A stretch of 7,042 nt of DNA from contig JAIRSD010000187.1 in assembly GCA_031255615.1 (NCBI GenBank), positions 1-7,042 of the forward strand. The letters run 5' to 3'. The first letter of the stretch is position 1; each line of letters opens with the position of its first letter. A program made the position numbers and the translations under genes. This stretch comes from Treponema sp. (GTDB taxonomy: Bacteria; Spirochaetota; Spirochaetia; Treponematales; Breznakiellaceae). Below are positions 1,111-6,409 of this stretch, piece by piece. The notes below the pieces were generated by a model. That model ran no database searches, had not been told where the DNA came from, and saw only the letters and a list, made by a program, of their open reading frames with translations.

Positions 1111-3615
1111 CTATTTGAATCTCCATCCCCGGTTGGAGGGGTAGAGGATCCCTACCAAAAGGTATACCCCGATGCCCAAACTCAGGAGACCGGAAAAACC
1201 GCTGGAGACCGCCAACACTCTGGCCAGGGCGCTGCCGGCCACGGAAAGCCCCCCGTTCATCCCCCAGGCCCAGGGTAAAAGGTGGGGTTTATTCTTCTGC
1301 AAGGTATCAAGGCCGTTGGGAAAGGGGAAGCCCATAAAAAAGGCCGTCGGGGCGATGATGAGCGTGGAAACGTAGACCCGGGTTACAAGGGAGGCCGAAT
1401 GAAAACGGTCCAGGAATTCGTCCAACCCGAAGATATAAAACAGGAGCCCCCCGGCAACCGCCGCGCAGGCCAGAGGCACGGCGACGATGCGGATTTTTTT
1501 TACCAGGGTGGAGCACAAATTCCCCAGGGCGGAGAAGATGAGCATCACCGTGATAACGATGCTGGTGGAATAGGTGGGGTTGGAAAGAAACAGCCCCAGC
1601 CGCTGGATAAGGTAGATCTCGATAAGCATGTAGCCCAGGCCCAGACCGGCGTAATAAAAAATGATTCCCACCGTGCTGCCGGGGTTGCGAAACAGGGTTT
1701 TCCTCCGGGCAAGCACGGGAATAACGATGACGATAAACCCAAAAACGCAGGCCTGAAGCAGCATTCCCAGGAGGAGCAGATAGCCCCATTCTTCGGAAAT
1801 ATCCTCCATTTGGTCCAGATACATGGGAAGATTTTCGAGTTTGAGGAATCCCGAATAATAGGGCCGTTCGTCCCGCATGGGGCGAATATCAAAGATATAC
1901 TGATCTTCAATGGGACCGGCGTTCCCGGAAAAAAAGACGGGAATAACGGCCCGGTACATATCGGCGTTGGTAAAACTTTCCACCGCCTCCGTTTCATGGC
2001 CTTCAAAATGCTGGTAATAGGCCCCCAGTAAAATATCGAGATCCCGCTGGGGAAGCTCGGTATCCGGGGCGTAGAGCTGTTCAAACGAACGGGTTTTAAC
2101 AAAATTGTTAAGGTCGTAGATCTCCCCCTCGGTAAAGGGCCCGTTCTTTACCAGCACCGTGGAGGTTGACATAAAAAGCCCGAAGGAATAAAAACACTTT
2201 TCCGGTTCCTCCACCCCCGATTCCCGCATGGCGGTAATAATACTGTTGAGGAGTTTCAATACGTTCCGGGGAGGGTTCAGACGATCCCAGACGGTAACCG
2301 AAAGGACTCCCCCCTCCCGGAGGCTGGAAAAATACTCCTTAAAGGCTTCCACGGTATATTTAAAATCCTCGTGGACCGCGTAGCCGCCGGAATCCGAAAG
2401 GCCGATGGAATCCACCAGGCTTATCTCCACCAGATCGTATTCGCCGGGGTGGTCCACGCACCAGGACCGGCCTTCTCCCTGGACGACGCTGATATTCCCG
2501 CTGTTCAACAGATCGCCGGTAAATCGAACAATGTTGGGATCCTCCCGCAAAAGCCGGATCATCTCCGGGGAGGGCTCCACAATATCAATGTTCCGGGCCC
2601 CCTTGTAGCGGGCGACCTGGGCGTTGATGCCGCCGCTCAGGTTCACCAAAAGAACATCGGGATTGGCGAGCATGGTGTAGGGGGCCGCCATGGGCAGGTA
2701 GTCCATGTAGGGCTGCTCATTTTCCCGGAGATTTCCCATGACCCCTATGGGGCCGGAACCGTCAACAAAGAGGCCCCAGTAAACCTGGGAAGGCATGGGG
2801 GCGTTCCGCAGGGCCGCGTTGTCGGAAAGGCCGGGGGCGAAGTGGAAATACCGGGAAGCGTAGGCATGGTATTCTCCACCGGGACTGTAGGAATGGTGGA
2901 CCAAAAGGGAATCGGGATACTTCCTTACATAACTTATGGCCTTGTAATCGGACACCCGGATATCCCCCCAGAGGAAGACGCAAACAAGGGAGCCCGCGGA
3001 GGAAAGGGCCAGGGCGCAAAGATGGGGCCAGGGGAAACGGTACACCCTGGTTTCCTCGTCCCGTTCTATACAGGCAAAGGCCGCCGCCGCGATGGACAGC
3101 CCCAGGATGGGAAGGATCAGATACCGGGGGGGGAGGAGAAACATAAAAACGATGATAAAAAAGCCCCCGATGCCGGAACCCACCATGTTCCAGAAGTAGA
3201 CCTTCTGTATCTCGTCCCGCAGGGCGATAAAGGCGACCCCGGTGAAGGCGGCGATAACGAAAAAAGGAAGACCGTAGATGATGTAATAGGCCCCAATAAA
3301 CCAGATCTGCCGGGAATCGGAGGCGAGAAAAACCGGATTGAAGGGAACAAGCTGGGCCAGGATAACCGCGCCGCCCATAAGGAGGGGCAGACTGACGGCG
3401 CAGATCGACATGACAAGCCCCGTGTGGGAACTCACCCAGTCGTCCAAAAAGGTGATAATGATCCCGGAAAGCCCGACCCCCAGGAGGGCGGTAGAAATGA
3501 CCAGGGAGCCGAAGTTAGACCAGCCGCCGATGGAAAATATCCGCATCACCAGAAGTTCGTAGGATATATCCGCGATGGAAATGAGAAACAACGCGATCAG
3601 TTTGGCATATTTCAT
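1111..3615 (-). CDS. Polytopic membrane protein with a spermidine-synthase-like domain
   Basis: 834 residues in three parts. Residues 1-216 hold about six or seven hydrophobic membrane segments. Residues 217-612 form a soluble region with a SpeE-like Rossmann core: VLLVNLSGGINAQVARY (321-337) at the nucleotide-loop position, IDIVEPSPEM (343-352) with acidic E347, YDLVEISLVDS (393-403), and HEDFKYTVEAFKEYFSSL (415-432) before REGGVL. RDERPYY (581-587) resembles the DDRPFF stretch of this family. Residues 613-825 hold further membrane segments with the family motifs MLIEIYLIQRLGLFL (663-677), MGFPFPNGL (761-769) and PWAWGMNGGLSVAGSALA (781-798). Such proteins are commonly annotated as spermidine synthase or fused methyltransferase. 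The glycine loop is SGGIN instead of GGGDG, so aminopropyl transfer is not supported; substrate unknown. The ATG at 3615 lies 8 bases below a TATAAT box; AAGG sits only 3 bases before it, close for a ribosome site. It is monocistronic here, convergent with pckG and divergent from the methyltransferase gene. The family call is sure, the function is not. Confidence 0.85.
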   Translation of the reverse strand: MKYAKLIALFLISIADISYELLVMRIFSIGGWSNFGSLVISTALLGVGLSGIIITFLDDWVSSHTGLVMSICAVSLPLLMGGAVILAQLVPFNPVFLASDSRQIWFIGAYYIIYGLPFFVIAAFTGVAFIALRDEIQKVYFWNMVGSGIGGFFIIVFMFLLPPRYLILPILGLSIAAAAFACIERDEETRVYRFPWPHLCALALSSAGSLVCVFLWGDIRVSDYKAISYVRKYPDSLLVHHSYSPGGEYHAYASRYFHFAPGLSDNAALRNAPMPSQVYWGLFVDGSGPIGVMGNLRENEQPYMDYLPMAAPYTMLANPDVLLVNLSGGINAQVARYKGARNIDIVEPSPEMIRLLREDPNIVRFTGDLLNSGNISVVQGEGRSWCVDHPGEYDLVEISLVDSIGLSDSGGYAVHEDFKYTVEAFKEYFSSLREGGVLSVTVWDRLNPPRNVLKLLNSIITAMRESGVEEPEKCFYSFGLFMSTSTVLVKNGPFTEGEIYDLNNFVKTRSFEQLYAPDTELPQRDLDILLGAYYQHFEGHETEAVESFTNADMYRAVIPVFFSGNAGPIEDQYIFDIRPMRDERPYYSGFLKLENLPMYLDQMEDISEEWGYLLLLGMLLQACVFGFIVIVIPVLARRKTLFRNPGSTVGIIFYYAGLGLGYMLIEIYLIQRLGLFLSNPTYSTSIVITVMLIFSALGNLCSTLVKKIRIVAVPLACAAVAGGLLFYIFGLDEFLDRFHSASLVTRVYVSTLIIAPTAFFMGFPFPNGLDTLQKNKPHLLPWAWGMNGGLSVAGSALARVLAVSSGFSGLLSLGIGVYLLVGILYPSNRGWRFK

Positions 3616-3623
3616 TAACCTTC

Positions 3624-3653
3624 ATTATATCCAAAGAATCCGGTCTTCTACAA
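3624..3653 (-). promoter_or_regulatory. Promoter of the SpeE-like membrane protein gene
   Basis: On the minus strand the -10 is a perfect TATAAT (3624-3629). Eighteen bases upstream is TTGTAG (3648-3653), a partial -35 that keeps TTG. Only 8 bases separate TATAAT from the ATG at 3615, so the predicted transcription start falls at or within about two bases of the start codon and the mRNA would be leaderless. Confidence 0.6.
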
Positions 3654-3711
3654 TGAGTCCGCCAGGATCTCAGGGGATTCGCGGTTTGTCAACGCCCCGT
3701 ACCCCGTGCAG

Positions 3712-3878
3712 GTTGGGCGCATTTTTTTGCGGCTCCGCCGCAAAAAAACCGGGCTATCCGCTTAAATCTTTTGCCTGGCCCCGCCAGGCAAAAGATACCG
3801 CTTCTATCCCTTGCGCGGGCGAAAGCCGCGCCGCGCGGCTTTCGCTTTCGCCGTGTTCCGCCCTTTTTCGGCGCGGCG
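3712..3878 (+). repeat. Modular four-hairpin repeat element, copy A
   Basis: The parts in order are: GTTGGGCGCAT (3712-3722); hairpin 1, a 12-bp stem TTTTTTTGCGGC with loop TCC (3722-3748); linker CCGGGCTATCCGCT (3749-3762); hairpin 2, a 13-bp stem ATCTTTTGCCTGG with a 5-base loop (3766-3796); a conserved 24-base block (3798-3821) containing CTATCCCTTGCGC; hairpin 3, an 11-bp stem GCGAAAGCCGC (3819-3845); TTTCGCCGTGTTCCGCC (3846-3862); and hairpin 4, where CGCCG + CGCC pairs with GGCG + CGGCG (3849-3878). GCGCA (3717-3721) can pair with TGCGC (3812-3816), enclosing hairpins 1 and 2 in a three-way junction. The linkers are nearly identical to those of copy B at 5097-5264 on the other strand. 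The right boundary is set by comparison with copy B and is approximate. It encodes no protein that I can support. Confidence 0.85.
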
Positions 3879-3948
3879 GGGAAAGCGAGCCGGTGCGGGA
3901 GGGCCGTCGGGGCGGCCCGGGGTTGTCCGGTCCGCGGGGGCTGAATAA

Positions 3949-3978
3949 TTGACAGGCCCGATAAGGATAAAATACACT
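3949..3978 (+). promoter_or_regulatory. Promoter of the isoaspartyl methyltransferase gene
   Basis: A perfect TTGACA (3949-3954) lies 18 bases upstream of TACACT (3973-3978), a 4-of-6 match to the -10 consensus. The GTG start codon begins 7 bases after the -10, so transcription should start at about the start codon. AAGGA at 3963-3967 is inside the promoter spacer and 18 bases from the start, so it cannot be the ribosome site for this transcript. The racemase promoter at 5273-5301 shares GACAGG and TACACTG. Confidence 0.7.
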
Positions 3979-3988
3979 GTGATCAGTG
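3975..3988 (+). promoter_or_regulatory. Small inverted repeat over the -10 box and GTG start
   Basis: CACTG (3975-3979), TGAT, CAGTG (3984-3988) form a 5-bp stem with a 4-base loop. It spans the end of the -10 box, the predicted transcription start and the GTG start codon. It could be an operator half-site pair or chance; it is short, so confidence is low. Confidence 0.3.
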
Positions 3989-5008
3989 AAACACGCTATA
4001 AAATCCGTTCAAGCCAATATCATTGTCGCCCTGGCGGGGGGCTTTGCCGGGGGCCTTGTCTTCGGGATTTTCCTTCCCCTGCTGATCTCCTCCCGGTCGG
4101 AGCGGGTGGTCGGCTACGAGGAGGCCGCCGCCCTTTTCGACCTGGAGAACCCGGACGAGGAGGCCGCCGTCGAGGGGGATCCTGACTACGGCCTGACCTT
4201 CGAGGTCCTGCCGGGGGGGAAAACCTACGACGGCCCGGCCCTGGCGCAGTCCATGCCCATCGAAACAAAGGAGGTCTGGCTCTCCTGGATGCGGAACAAC
4301 CGGAACGACAACCCCGCTTTTCTGGAAAAACGCTGGGCCCTGGCCCAGGATTTCGTCCTCTCCTCGGAACTCAAGCGCCCCGAGGACGTCCGGGCCTTCC
4401 TCCTTTCCCCCCGGGAGCATTTTGTCCGGGACCGGAACAGGGGCATGGAGTACGCCGACACCTGGCTGTCCATCGGCTACGGGGCCACCATCACCGATCC
4501 CGACGTGGTCGCCATGATGACCACCAGCCTGGGCATCCAGCCGGGGGATCGGGTGCTGGAAATCGGGACGGGCTCCGGCTATCAAAGCGCCATCCTTTCC
4601 TACCTGGCCCAGGATGTTTACACCATCGAAATTATAAAACCCCTCTACATCGAGACCGACAAGCTCTACCGGGATCTGGAAAAATCCTACCCCTCCTACG
4701 GGGGCATAAGCCGGAAACTGGGGGACGGCTACTACGGCTGGGAAAAATACGCCCCCTTCGACAAAATCATCGTTACCTGCGCCATCGACCATATTCCCCC
4801 TCCCCTGCTGAAACAGCTTAAGCCCGGCGGAACCATGGTGCTGCCCCTGGGGCCGCCCCAGCGCCAGTACATCATGGAGGTTAAAAAAGAGGTGGCCGAA
4901 GACGGCGCCATCACCCTAAGCCGCCGGGATGTTTACAACGGCCTGCGGGTTAAATTTATTCCCTTCCGGGATGAGGCGGGATCTTCCTACAGCACGGCGG
5001 CGGAATAG
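3986..5008 (+). CDS. pcm: Membrane-anchored protein-L-isoaspartate O-methyltransferase
   Basis: This enzyme transfers a methyl group from S-adenosylmethionine to isoaspartyl residues of aged proteins so that they can revert to aspartate. It has 340 residues, against about 210 in E. coli Pcm. Residues 11-34 are one hydrophobic segment, then an acidic linker (about 45-90). The PCMT domain runs from about 125 to the end: SPREHFV (141-147), the substrate loop SIGYGATITDP (162-172), SAM loop RVLEIGTGSGYQSA (189-202), acidic E215 in YTIEII, GDGYYGW (246-252), PFDKIIVT (257-264) and LKPGG (278-282). The loop has Thr where Pcm proteins usually have the Ser of TISQP. GTG at 3986 is used because TGA at 3980-3982 closes the frame upstream and the next Met is residue 90; no ribosome site is visible. 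I see no signal-peptidase or lipobox site, so the segment looks like an anchor. Family certain; which membrane face it acts on is open. It is bracketed by inverted repeat copies A and B. Confidence 0.9.
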   Translation: MKHAIKSVQANIIVALAGGFAGGLVFGIFLPLLISSRSERVVGYEEAAALFDLENPDEEAAVEGDPDYGLTFEVLPGGKTYDGPALAQSMPIETKEVWLSWMRNNRNDNPAFLEKRWALAQDFVLSSELKRPEDVRAFLLSPREHFVRDRNRGMEYADTWLSIGYGATITDPDVVAMMTTSLGIQPGDRVLEIGTGSGYQSAILSYLAQDVYTIEIIKPLYIETDKLYRDLEKSYPSYGGISRKLGDGYYGWEKYAPFDKIIVTCAIDHIPPPLLKQLKPGGTMVLPLGPPQRQYIMEVKKEVAEDGAITLSRRDVYNGLRVKFIPFRDEAGSSYSTAAE

Positions 5009-5009
5009 G

Positions 5010-5039
5010 GCTGTTCAGAAACTGAAGTTTCTGAACAGC
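5010..5039. repeat. 30-bp near-perfect palindrome after the pcm stop
   Basis: GCTGTTCAGAAACT (5010-5023) and AGTTTCTGAACAGC (5026-5039) are exact reverse complements separated by GA. As RNA this is a 13-bp stem with a TGAA tetraloop. No T run follows, so it is not a standard intrinsic terminator. A smaller alternative hairpin is nested inside: TTCAG (5014-5018) with CTGAA (5022-5026). It could be an interspersed palindromic repeat, an mRNA 3'-end stabiliser or a protein-binding site. Confidence 0.8.
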
Positions 5040-5096
5040 AACCGTTTAAATTAAAAACGAAGAAGCGCGGCTTGCCCGCGATTCCCCATTTAAAAA

Positions 5097-5264
5097 CGCC
5101 GCCCCTGACGCAAGCCGGGAACGGCGGGGCACGGCGAAAGGCGGAAGCCGCGCCGGACCGGCGCGGCTTCCGCCCGCGCAAGGGATAGGAGCGGAATAAA
5201 AACCCGCAGGGTTTTTGTTAGAGCGGATAGCCCGGTCCCCGCCGGAGGCGGGGATGCGCCCAAC
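5097..5264 (-). repeat. Modular four-hairpin repeat element, copy B
   Basis: Read on the minus strand from 5264 downwards: GTTGGGCGCAT (5264-5254); hairpin 1, an 8-bp stem TCCCCGCC with the same TCC loop as copy A (5254-5236); CCGGGCTATCCGCT (5235-5222); hairpin 2, stem AAAAACCC with a 3-base loop (5216-5198); the 24-base block (5194-5171), one mismatch from copy A; hairpin 3, about 16 bp, containing GAAGCCGCGCC (5174-5140); TTTCGCCGTGCCCCGCC (5139-5123), 15 of 17 identical to copy A; and hairpin 4, CGCCG + CCCC pairing with GGGG + CGGCG (5136-5097). The copy is 168 bases long against 167 for copy A. Stems 1 and 2 are unrelated in sequence to those of copy A, while the linkers are almost unchanged. 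It lies antisense to the flanking pcm and orr genes. Confidence 0.85.
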
Positions 5265-5272
5265 TACAGTCC

Positions 5273-5301
5273 TAGACAGGGCGGAAAAGATGGCCTACAC
5301 T
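5273..5301 (+). promoter_or_regulatory. Promoter of the orr-marC-family operon
   Basis: TAGACA (5273-5278, 5 of 6 to TTGACA) is 17 bases upstream of TACACT (5296-5301). It starts 8 bases outside the GTTGGGC end of repeat copy B. The ATG lies 13 bases after the -10, leaving a leader of about 5-7 bases, too short for a ribosome-binding site. GACAGG and TACACTG are shared with the pcm promoter at 3949-3979. Confidence 0.65.
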
Positions 5302-5324
5302 GCCGGCAGCATACATGCCCGGCA
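5301..5324 (+). promoter_or_regulatory. Paired TGCCGGCA-type palindromes at the orr start
   Basis: TGCCGGCA (5301-5308) is a perfect 8-base palindrome that begins on the last base of the -10 box. TGCCCGGCA (5316-5324) repeats it with one extra C and begins inside the ATG. Two similar palindromes 15 bases apart over the transcription and translation start would suit a repressor site. In GC-rich DNA this could be chance. Confidence 0.35.
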
Positions 5325-6409
5325 AAAAAACAGGGGGGCCCTACCCTCTTTTATATATCGATATTGAGAAGCTCAAAGCCAATCTGGAAACCGTCGGCGC
5401 AATGGTAAAGGGGGCGGGCTGTTCCCTGGCGGTCGTTACAAAGTCGTTTTGCGCGGATGAAAGGATAGTCCGCATGCTCGCCGCCTCTCCGCTGGTCGAT
5501 TATCTTGCCGATTCCCGTTTGCTGAATCTTGAAAGATGCGGGGGCCGGGGAAAGGAGACCATGCTGCTGCGGCTTCCCCAGGCCGCTGAAATAGAGGGGG
5601 TGATCTCCTGCGCCGATATAAGCCTTAATTCCGAACTGGACACCCTGGGTCTTTTGAACGCCGAAGCGGGGCGGCGGCGGAAGATGCACAAAGTAATACT
5701 GATGATCGATCTGGGGGATCTCCGGGAGGGAATTTATTTTACGGAGGAAGAAACAATTCTTAAAACCGCGGAGGCCGTCGTGGAGATGCCCAACCTCATC
5801 CTCCAGGGGATAGGGGCCAACCTTACCTGCTACGGGGCGGTTATTCCGAAAAAAGACAACCTTTCCGTGCTGGCCTCCTGGGGGGAACGTATCAGGAAGC
5901 GTTTCGGCATCGATCTCCCGGTGGTTTCCGGGGGGAATTCCAGCTCCCTTTATTTGATCGGCCGGGGGGAGCTGCCGGCGGGGATCAACAACCTGCGGCT
6001 GGGGGAGGCCTTTATCGTGGGCAGGGAGGCGGCCTATAAAACAAGAATCCCGCGGACCTACGACGACGGGGTGATCCTGGAGGCCCAGATAATTGAAATA
6101 CAGACCAAGCCTTCCCTGCCGCTGGGGGAACGGGGGGTGGACGCCTTTGAGGGAAGGCCCGTTTTTACGGATCGGGGCAGAATCAGACGGGCGATTTGCG
6201 CCGTGGGGAGGCAGGACCTGGAACCGGGGGGCATCACTCCCGTGGAGGGGGGGCTGGAAATTTTGGGCGCAAGTTCCGATCATCTTATCGTGGATATAAA
6301 CGATTCGGAGAAGGACTACCGGCCGGGGGATACGATTCGCTTTGTCCCCAATTACGCCGCCCTGCTGCGGCTCTTTACATCCCCCTATATCAACCGGGTT
6401 TACGGGTAG
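5315..6409 (+). CDS. orr: Ornithine racemase, PLP-dependent fold-type III
   Basis: Predicted to interconvert L- and D-ornithine in the cytosol with pyridoxal phosphate. Its 364 residues follow the Orr family of ornithine-fermenting clostridia closely from about residue 10 to the end. Landmarks are YIDIEKLKANL (14-24), AVVTKSFCAD (39-48) with the PLP Schiff-base lysine K43, YLADSR (63-68), DISLNSELDTL (101-111), IDLGDLREG (131-139), GANLTCYGAVIPKKDNLS (167-184), VSGGNSSSLYLI (204-215), NNLRLGEAFIVGRE (225-238), KPSLPLGERGVDAF (265-278) and ILGASSDHLIVDI (316-328). The ATG at 5315 is the only ordinary start that keeps the N-terminal homology: TAG at 5273 closes the frame upstream, and the next Met is residue 30. 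No Shine-Dalgarno is visible, fitting the near-leaderless promoter. It is the first gene of an operon with the MarC-family gene 4 bases downstream. Activity on alanine or lysine instead of ornithine cannot be excluded from sequence alone. Confidence 0.92.
   Translation: MPGKKTGGPYPLLYIDIEKLKANLETVGAMVKGAGCSLAVVTKSFCADERIVRMLAASPLVDYLADSRLLNLERCGGRGKETMLLRLPQAAEIEGVISCADISLNSELDTLGLLNAEAGRRRKMHKVILMIDLGDLREGIYFTEEETILKTAEAVVEMPNLILQGIGANLTCYGAVIPKKDNLSVLASWGERIRKRFGIDLPVVSGGNSSSLYLIGRGELPAGINNLRLGEAFIVGREAAYKTRIPRTYDDGVILEAQIIEIQTKPSLPLGERGVDAFEGRPVFTDRGRIRRAICAVGRQDLEPGGITPVEGGLEILGASSDHLIVDINDSEKDYRPGDTIRFVPNYAALLRLFTSPYINRVYG

Follow-up and report, generated by a model that had tools for sequence, protein, structure and literature searches.

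The window examined here, a 7,042-bp stretch of Treponema sp. contig JAIRSD010000187.1, encodes PEPCK, an 834-aa protein that matches no Pfam family, a PCMT-family protein, an alanine-racemase-N protein and MarC, and carries two copies of a dispersed repeat whose inner part is the Rfam family Flavo-1. One copy lies on each side of the PCMT gene; the two are oppositely oriented, and their GGGCG ends point outward. Judged by the racemase, the closest named relatives of the source are the Treponema sp. metagenome-assembled genomes (MAGs) Ct408_bin124 (75% identity) and Pcl387_bin26 (71%), which we take to be termite-gut genomes.

The copies span positions 3712-3878 on the plus strand (167 nt) and 5097-5264 on the minus strand (168 nt). 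An initial annotation, made from the window alone, had described four blocks recurring in the same order, and this is confirmed: GTTGGGCGCAT and CCGGGCTATCCGCT are identical in the two copies, a 24-mer differs at one position and CTTTCGCCGTGnnCCGCC at two. At those mismatch limits, each block has exactly two matches in the window and none in 40 first-order Markov windows. The widespread unit is shorter, comprising just the first ~90-105 nt of each copy (the cores in Table 1). The other 60-80 nt, which include hairpin 3 and the CTTTCGCCGTG block, are an extension common to both window copies that some copies in genome G001 resemble loosely, as judged by eye.

The initial annotation knew no named family for the repeat and had named a match to one as grounds for withdrawing that claim. 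The Rfam search that it suggested returned just such a match: the core of copy 1 scores above the curated gathering cut-off of Flavo-1 (RF01705), and that of copy 2 falls under it, in both cases on the strand opposite to the one first annotated (Table 1). A known core had thus been correctly spotted. According to Table 1 of Weinberg et al. (2010), Flavo-1 belongs to the Bacteroidetes and is marked "y" as an RNA and "n" as a cis-regulatory element (PMC2864571). In the accessible descriptions, Rfam files it as type Gene, a Bacteroidetes small RNA (sRNA) with no known role (PMC2864571, PMC9029176), and one review counts it among the sRNA families that it lists as most abundant (PMC9029176). The early impression that similar repeats occur in both Bacteroidetes and Treponema was borne out, Rfam and Weinberg et al. 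listing the former in the portions available and copies being present in Treponema MAGs and their relatives. No earlier description of the element as a mobile repeat was found in a largely non-subscription literature judged mostly by title, and a letter search with six linker strings gave only papers with unrelated titles.

The real core extends beyond the Rfam model, which covers 76 positions and the P2 arm only. In the orientation of the initial annotation, it reads TTTGG-[P0 5']-[P1 hairpin]-CCGN-GCTWTnCGCT-[P2 hairpin]-CCGCTnCWATC-N'-CT-[P0 3'], that is, a three-way junction in which helix P0 closes the structure and hairpins P1 and P2 are swapped from copy to copy. The P2 arm and the linkers are the same as in RF01705, whereas P0 and P1 lie outside it. 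Across an alignment of 32 copies, 99.3% of cells are paired, both sides have changed in 9 of 14 pairs, and the covariation score is 0.526, against a shuffled mean of 0.139 and at most 0.114 for slid versions. P0 is fully (5/5) complementary in 81 of 107 distinct elements, compared to about 11 with shuffled partners. In a wider set of 189 distinct elements, among which the parser located P0 in 157, 181 have a Watson-Crick N-N' pair, all four pair types being represented, and 185 a Watson-Crick pair at the next position outward. Because the pattern used to choose these 189 elements dictates most letters of the linkers, we draw no evidence from linker conservation. In single-sequence folds, P0, P1 and P2 all appear in copy 1 (z -5.6), and P1, P2 and hairpin 3, without P0, in copy 2 (z -5.3). 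The view of the initial annotation that the repeat belongs to an abundant family is supported; within this family the linkers stay constant and the hairpins are swapped.

Table 1. Features of the two repeat copies and of the gene between them, in window coordinates. R1 and R2 are the two models described in the text.
Feature	Position	Strand	Evidence or remark
Core element, copy 1	3713..3817	+	R1 71.3 bits (3713-3818); R2 59.2 bits, E 5e-14
P0 5' side GCGCA, copy 1	3717..3721	+	partner 3812-3816; P0 covaries; formed in copy 1 fold
P1 hairpin, copy 1	3722..3748	+	fold
Constant linker CCGGGCTATCCGCT, copy 1	3749..3762	+	identical in copy 2
P2 hairpin region, copy 1	3763..3797	+	fold
Constant linker CCGCTTCTATCCCT, copy 1	3798..3811	+	block comparison; conserved in alignment A1
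P0 3' side TGCGC, copy 1	3812..3816	+	fold; covariation
3' extension, copy 1: hairpin 3 (3817-3847) plus another hairpin	3817..3878	+	fold; blocks common to both copies
RF01705 Flavo-1 footprint, copy 1	3743..3825	-	47.7 bits, gathering 42
Core element, copy 2	5175..5263	-	R1 69.2 bits (5174-5263); R2 53.0 bits, E 2e-12
P0 5' side, copy 2	5255..5259	-	complementary to 5176-5180; R1 alignment; absent from single-sequence fold
P1 hairpin, copy 2	5236..5254	-	fold
Constant linker, copy 2	5222..5235	-	block comparison; repeat search I23
P2 hairpin region, copy 2	5195..5221	-	fold
Constant linker CCGCTCCTATCCCT, copy 2	5181..5194	-	block comparison
P0 3' side, copy 2	5176..5180	-	R1 alignment
3' extension, copy 2, with 17-bp hairpin 3 (5140-5174)	5097..5175	-	repeat search I15; fold; block comparison
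RF01705 Flavo-1, sub-threshold, copy 2	5167..5241	+	23.1 bits, gathering 42, E 0.059
PCMT-family gene between the opposed copies (context, outside the element)	3986..5008	+	PF01135, E 2e-44

Two models of the element were used. R1 was trained on sequences that include both window copies; R2 was built only from 5 viral-contig copies and 12 copies of genome G034, without Treponema. R2 detects both window copies and matches all 40 R1-picked loci from G301, G318 and G312 (43 matches, one of them weak), in line with a family that extends across clades. Exact pattern matches number 14 in G001, 3 in G003, 4 in G004 and none in G002 or G005, with no match to the reversed pattern in these five genomes. 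G034, presumably of the Leptospira group to go by its DUF1564 genes, has 75 against none in 40 relatives, the reversed-pattern controls again giving 0. With the best 15 candidates per genome considered, RF01705 gave matches in 26 of the 296 Spirochaetota genomes, above cut-off in 11 of them, and in none of 14 control genomes. R1 at E <=0.01, scoring the best 150 candidates per genome, counted 148 copies in G034, 78 in G003, 22 in G001, 17 in G002 and 7 in G004. At E <=1e-4, among the best 111 candidates per genome, 21 of the 38 genomes made up of G001 and its relatives matched (at least 111 copies each in G301 and G318; 53 in G312), and the other 17 had no match. The scan of related genomes proposed in the initial annotation thus yielded many further copies, and the family is abundant, as had been suspected, in relatives of the source; its copy number is patchy between relatives. 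Single-copy BLAST searches gave no match in plasmids or phages in most runs and short matches otherwise, e.g. 29 bases in Shewanella plasmids.

A helix selected as RNA should prefer G.U over A.C on its own strand. In the 189 elements, Watson-Crick, G.T and A.C pairs number 770, 8 and 7 in P0, 1274, 8 and 10 in P1, and 1993, 36 and 40 in P2; other mismatches amount to 20 in P1 and 260 in P2. Over the three stems, G.T and A.C occur in equally low numbers whichever strand is considered (52 vs 57), whereas 23 tRNAs from the same loci contain 464 Watson-Crick pairs, 31 G.T and no A.C. The set includes four viral matches treated below as chance (L212, L216, L226 and L228) and close relatives, so that independence of the cells does not hold (there are 28 distinct P0 helices). 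In small groups the balance shifts in either direction: P0 of viral copies shows 5 A.C and 1 G.T, and P0 of G034 shows 7 G.T and 2 A.C. Equal numbers of G.T and A.C lead us to favour a reading of the stems as palindromes kept as DNA, under which occasional transcription would be possible too. Hairpin-templated repair could be a source of such near-pure Watson-Crick stems.

These counts bear on the function under which Flavo-1 is filed, a functional sRNA or regulatory RNA made from the purine-rich strand. Such a function would account for a curated family with conserved structure and for the covariation of the fold, and several 5' transcribed regions of Flavobacterium psychrophilum coincide with Flavo-1 matches; the same study, as far as its accessible text goes, has the matches lying sense or antisense alike and many of them outside transcribed regions (PMC9723704). 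Besides the missing G.T preference, the orientation of the element relative to neighbouring genes is mixed in G034, and its copy number leaps from 0 to more than 100 between relatives. We therefore consider a functional RNA unlikely.

The borders of the element were defined on 62 solo copies that fit one pattern, from loci of G001-G004, G301, G312, G318 and other G001 relatives. Core lengths range between 86 and 122, and the ends are sharp, ATTT|GGGCGC on one side and TTGCGC|GG on the other, with unrelated flanks on both sides. Information is 0.8-1.3 bits at positions -4 to -1 (ATTT), 0.65-0.77 at +1/+2 and at most 0.41 beyond; T is favoured among the upstream bases. Between the two 30-base flanks, the longest common word averages 5.1 in direct orientation (4.7 in shuffled flanks) and 4.8 when inverted (4.7). 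Sharp ends, unrelated flanks and these word lengths point to dispersed units without evident target duplication. In our judgement the repeat is probably a mobile DNA element, about 86-122 bp long, that has no genes, is non-autonomous, spreads as DNA and contains Flavo-1 as its inner part. The following mechanism would suit these features. Spread would occur as DNA, the core itself being the moving unit; an enzyme acting in trans would probably recognise the folded single strand, in which P0 closes a junction with the P1 hairpin and the P2 arm; recognition would go by shape and by the constant linkers, leaving hairpin sequences to drift and be exchanged; and insertion would be mostly intergenic, with the GGGCG end against a short T-run and no target duplication.

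Several observations weigh against this reading. The flank-word excess just given is compatible with a very short duplication. No strain-level filled/empty pair and no clean empty site were found, the viral relatives of the L007 terminase (see below) being too distant to yield one. Neither the survey of Y1 transposases described below nor that of genes beside copies revealed a mobilising gene; no gene recurs beside most copies, and the largest multi-genome family has 6 members among 413 adjacent open reading frames (ORFs). Many G003 copies lie inside larger repeats, called A and B (e.g. L244, L268, L274, L287), for which reason the core may be a passenger in that genome. One copy of repeat A, L289, is almost without core and retains TTGGCCGCAT; this state may represent a deletion rather than an empty site.

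A rival reading is that the core is not mobile itself and is carried by larger repeats with terminal inverted repeats, which are moved by ordinary transposases. Repeat A has such termini (TTTTACATTTAC/GTAAATGTAAAA), and inspection by eye shows duplications of ~9 bp at a few of its copies; repeat B contains the core as well, and L270 and L241 are B-left/A-right composites. One subfamily of G034 has common flanks of up to about 600 bp. At five of 38 Rfam-scanned loci (L341, L352, L359, L360 and L361), TD-2 (RF03162) abuts the inner side of the Flavo-1 core, so that two families both filed as sRNAs form one composite repeat there. Against this stand the solo copies, which come from other genomes, begin at the same letters and share no flanks, and the occurrence of the same core inside unrelated larger repeats and in phages. 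The terminal inverted repeats and target duplication that mark miniature inverted-repeat transposable elements of that type were not seen at solo cores and were noted by eye in a few copies of repeat A. A pure passenger role appears improbable to us.

The setting of the copies varies among genomes. Overlap with an ORF of at least 70 aa was found for 0 of 58 elements in G034, 1 of 10 viral ones, 12 of 21 in Treponema MAGs, 9 of 16 in others and 1 of 2 in the window; many of the overlapping frames in GC-rich MAGs may be spurious. In G034, a gene 3' end faces the left end of the element in 31 cases, 12 of them at a distance of 3-16 bp. A role as terminator or leader was rejected in view of the mixed orientation to genes in that genome. 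Of 28 close-neighbour pairs in G034 (120 bp-6 kb), 25 are inverted (p 2.7e-5; 18 of 20 for R1 matches alone), compared to 45 of 83 at 6-60 kb. The window pair fits this bias, which we do not generalise, however, because close direct pairs exist in G003; the 10 of 11 inverted close pairs in G301 are suspect, as contigs seem to break beside elements.

Copies also occur on phage contigs. Two patterns matched 34 viral-contig stretches, from which L212, L216, L226 and L228 were set aside as chance, the matches lying inside reading frames. On nine contigs (L004, L007, L129, L211, L213, L214, L215, L221 and L225; L223 repeats L215), the element lies at most about 60 bp past members of one gene family, all nine homologous by phmmer (E <=1e-24). 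Two of these match PHROG 2, the terminase large subunit; four tested gave no Pfam match. P0, P1 and P2 differ among the nine copies. The related phages L218 and L224 have a 142-bp element block in common at different positions. A microvirus record, L204, matches R1 with 52.3 bits; L003, which encodes a Rep ORF2/G2P protein, is matched by R1 too but belonged to its training set; L205 gave no R1 match. The phages carrying the element presumably infect Bacteroidetes.

The recurrence of diverged copies behind terminase-type genes, together with the microvirus copy, would suit a DNA site with a function in phages, for instance in packaging or replication, the genomic copies being remains or decoys. 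R1 found no element in the terminase relatives L231, L232 and L236 (L233-L235 and L237-L239, nearly identical among themselves, were outside that scan), other viral copies are situated elsewhere and on either strand relative to genes, and some hosts carry well over 100 chromosomal copies. A function as a phage site seems distinctly unlikely. Past the terminase gene, L232, L233 and L237 have another palindrome-rich stretch with TATATCC/TATTTCC and GGAATAG/GGATAG letters and no recognised element.

If the repeat is mobile DNA, a known class might already accommodate it. Repetitive extragenic palindromic (REP) elements, or palindromes derived from IS200/IS605 insertion sequences, are moved in trans by Y1 (RAYT/TnpA) transposases. 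Like them, the Flavo-1 element is small and folded, lacks evident target duplication and adjoins a short T-rich motif; REPs are likewise small palindromic repeats of high and patchy copy number with few head-to-tail dimers, in the sections available (PMC3733652, PMC8266576), an avoidance that recalls the close pairs of G034 (PMC3733652). However, Y1_Tnp is absent in 11 of 18 element genomes, in G318 with its at least 111 copies, and in G001; G311 and G305, element-free at E 1e-4, have 9 and 6 Y1 genes; and the element lies in the flanks of only 1 of 29 Y1 loci (those found later in the survey of G311 and G305 being outside that scan). Since presence of Y1 does not track the element and only that one locus lies near a copy, RAYT/Y1 was rejected as mobiliser. 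The 62 solo copies have no GTAG or CGTC end tag at their borders, and the Flavo-1 element, a ~100-bp three-way junction in which two hairpins are exchanged, has hardly any of the G.T pairs that are frequent in GTAG REPs as described in the accessible text of PMC3733652 or PMC8266576. CGTC-tagged REPs, for which these partly available sources give no known transposase, occur in Bacteroidetes and Spirochaetes (PMC3733652, PMC8266576). Already strongly weakened by these results, an origin as a Y1-mobilised palindrome is highly improbable.

Other classes share some of these traits. PATEs, end-only IS200/IS605 derivatives, are folded and gene-less, leave no target duplication, none being evident here either by the flank words, and have been proposed to move in trans, according to the available part of PMC7290912. 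No parent insertion sequence or Y1 transposase tracks the Flavo-1 element, in contrast to them. Integron attC sites conserve structure more than sequence and have paired RYYYAAC and GTTRRRY boxes. Structure prevails over sequence in the Flavo-1 element as well, and the outer ends of the window copies, GTTGGGC, fit the GTTRRRY box; yet TTTGGGC is the reading in most solo copies, and a paired RYYYAAC box was not seen, an integrase not having been searched for. At L049-L053 of G178 (2.57-2.67 Mb), same-strand copies stand at the starts of repeated ORFs in a cassette-like array. An integron cassette array, suggested by same-strand clusters in G178, G293 and G036, was rejected, the G178 copies bordering repeated frames that look Rhs-like by eye, without family search. 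TD-2 is also a hairpin-and-linker repeat filed as sRNA, but its sequence is unlike that of the Flavo-1 element, and it had no match at E <=1 in window positions 3600-5400 (cut-off 48.7 bits).

In G034, the element lies in the flanks of 10 of 24 DUF1564 loci, with 8/8 downstream copies on the minus strand and 4/4 upstream copies on the plus strand in the frame of the gene; one pattern match, in L192, was dropped from this tally for lack of a hairpin. At L180 and L183, multi-copy DUF1564 genes lie between opposed element copies in the layout seen at the PCMT gene of the window. DUF1564 was rejected as mobiliser in G034: opposed pairs flank ordinary genes too, and the loci include close paralogues.

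The window contains a second palindromic repeat of these genomes. Immediately past the PCMT stop, positions 5013-5036 form a perfect palindrome, GTTCAGAAACTGAAGTTTCTGAAC. Its degenerate pattern has exact matches in 8 of the 408 loci retrieved, of which several are overlapping stretches from the same sites in G003; 200 shuffles of the window gave none.

In conclusion, a gene-less repeat of mobile DNA accounts for the evidence better than an sRNA does, and we infer the mechanism beyond that. P0, P1, the borders, the bursts in copy number, the phage locations and the DNA-like behaviour are not part of the Rfam model. More tentatively, and with the balance somewhat against it, Flavo-1 might represent a separate class of gene-less mobile DNA of ~100 bp, recognised by a folded single-strand shape (three-way junction, constant linkers, freely exchanged hairpins), inserted beside T-runs without duplication by a trans-acting enzyme, carried by phages, single-stranded DNA phages included, between Bacteroidetes and spirochaetes, and multiplied within individual spirochaete genomes to well above 100 copies. 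If so, Flavo-1 and perhaps the neighbouring TD-2 would be DNA rather than RNA. Should the element be mobile DNA, it would point to an enzyme acting on structured DNA that is common to two phyla and their phages, a widely used RNA family would need reclassifying, and sRNA gene counts based on Rfam would change in meaning. Such mobility would also offer an explanation for part of the repeat load of Treponema.

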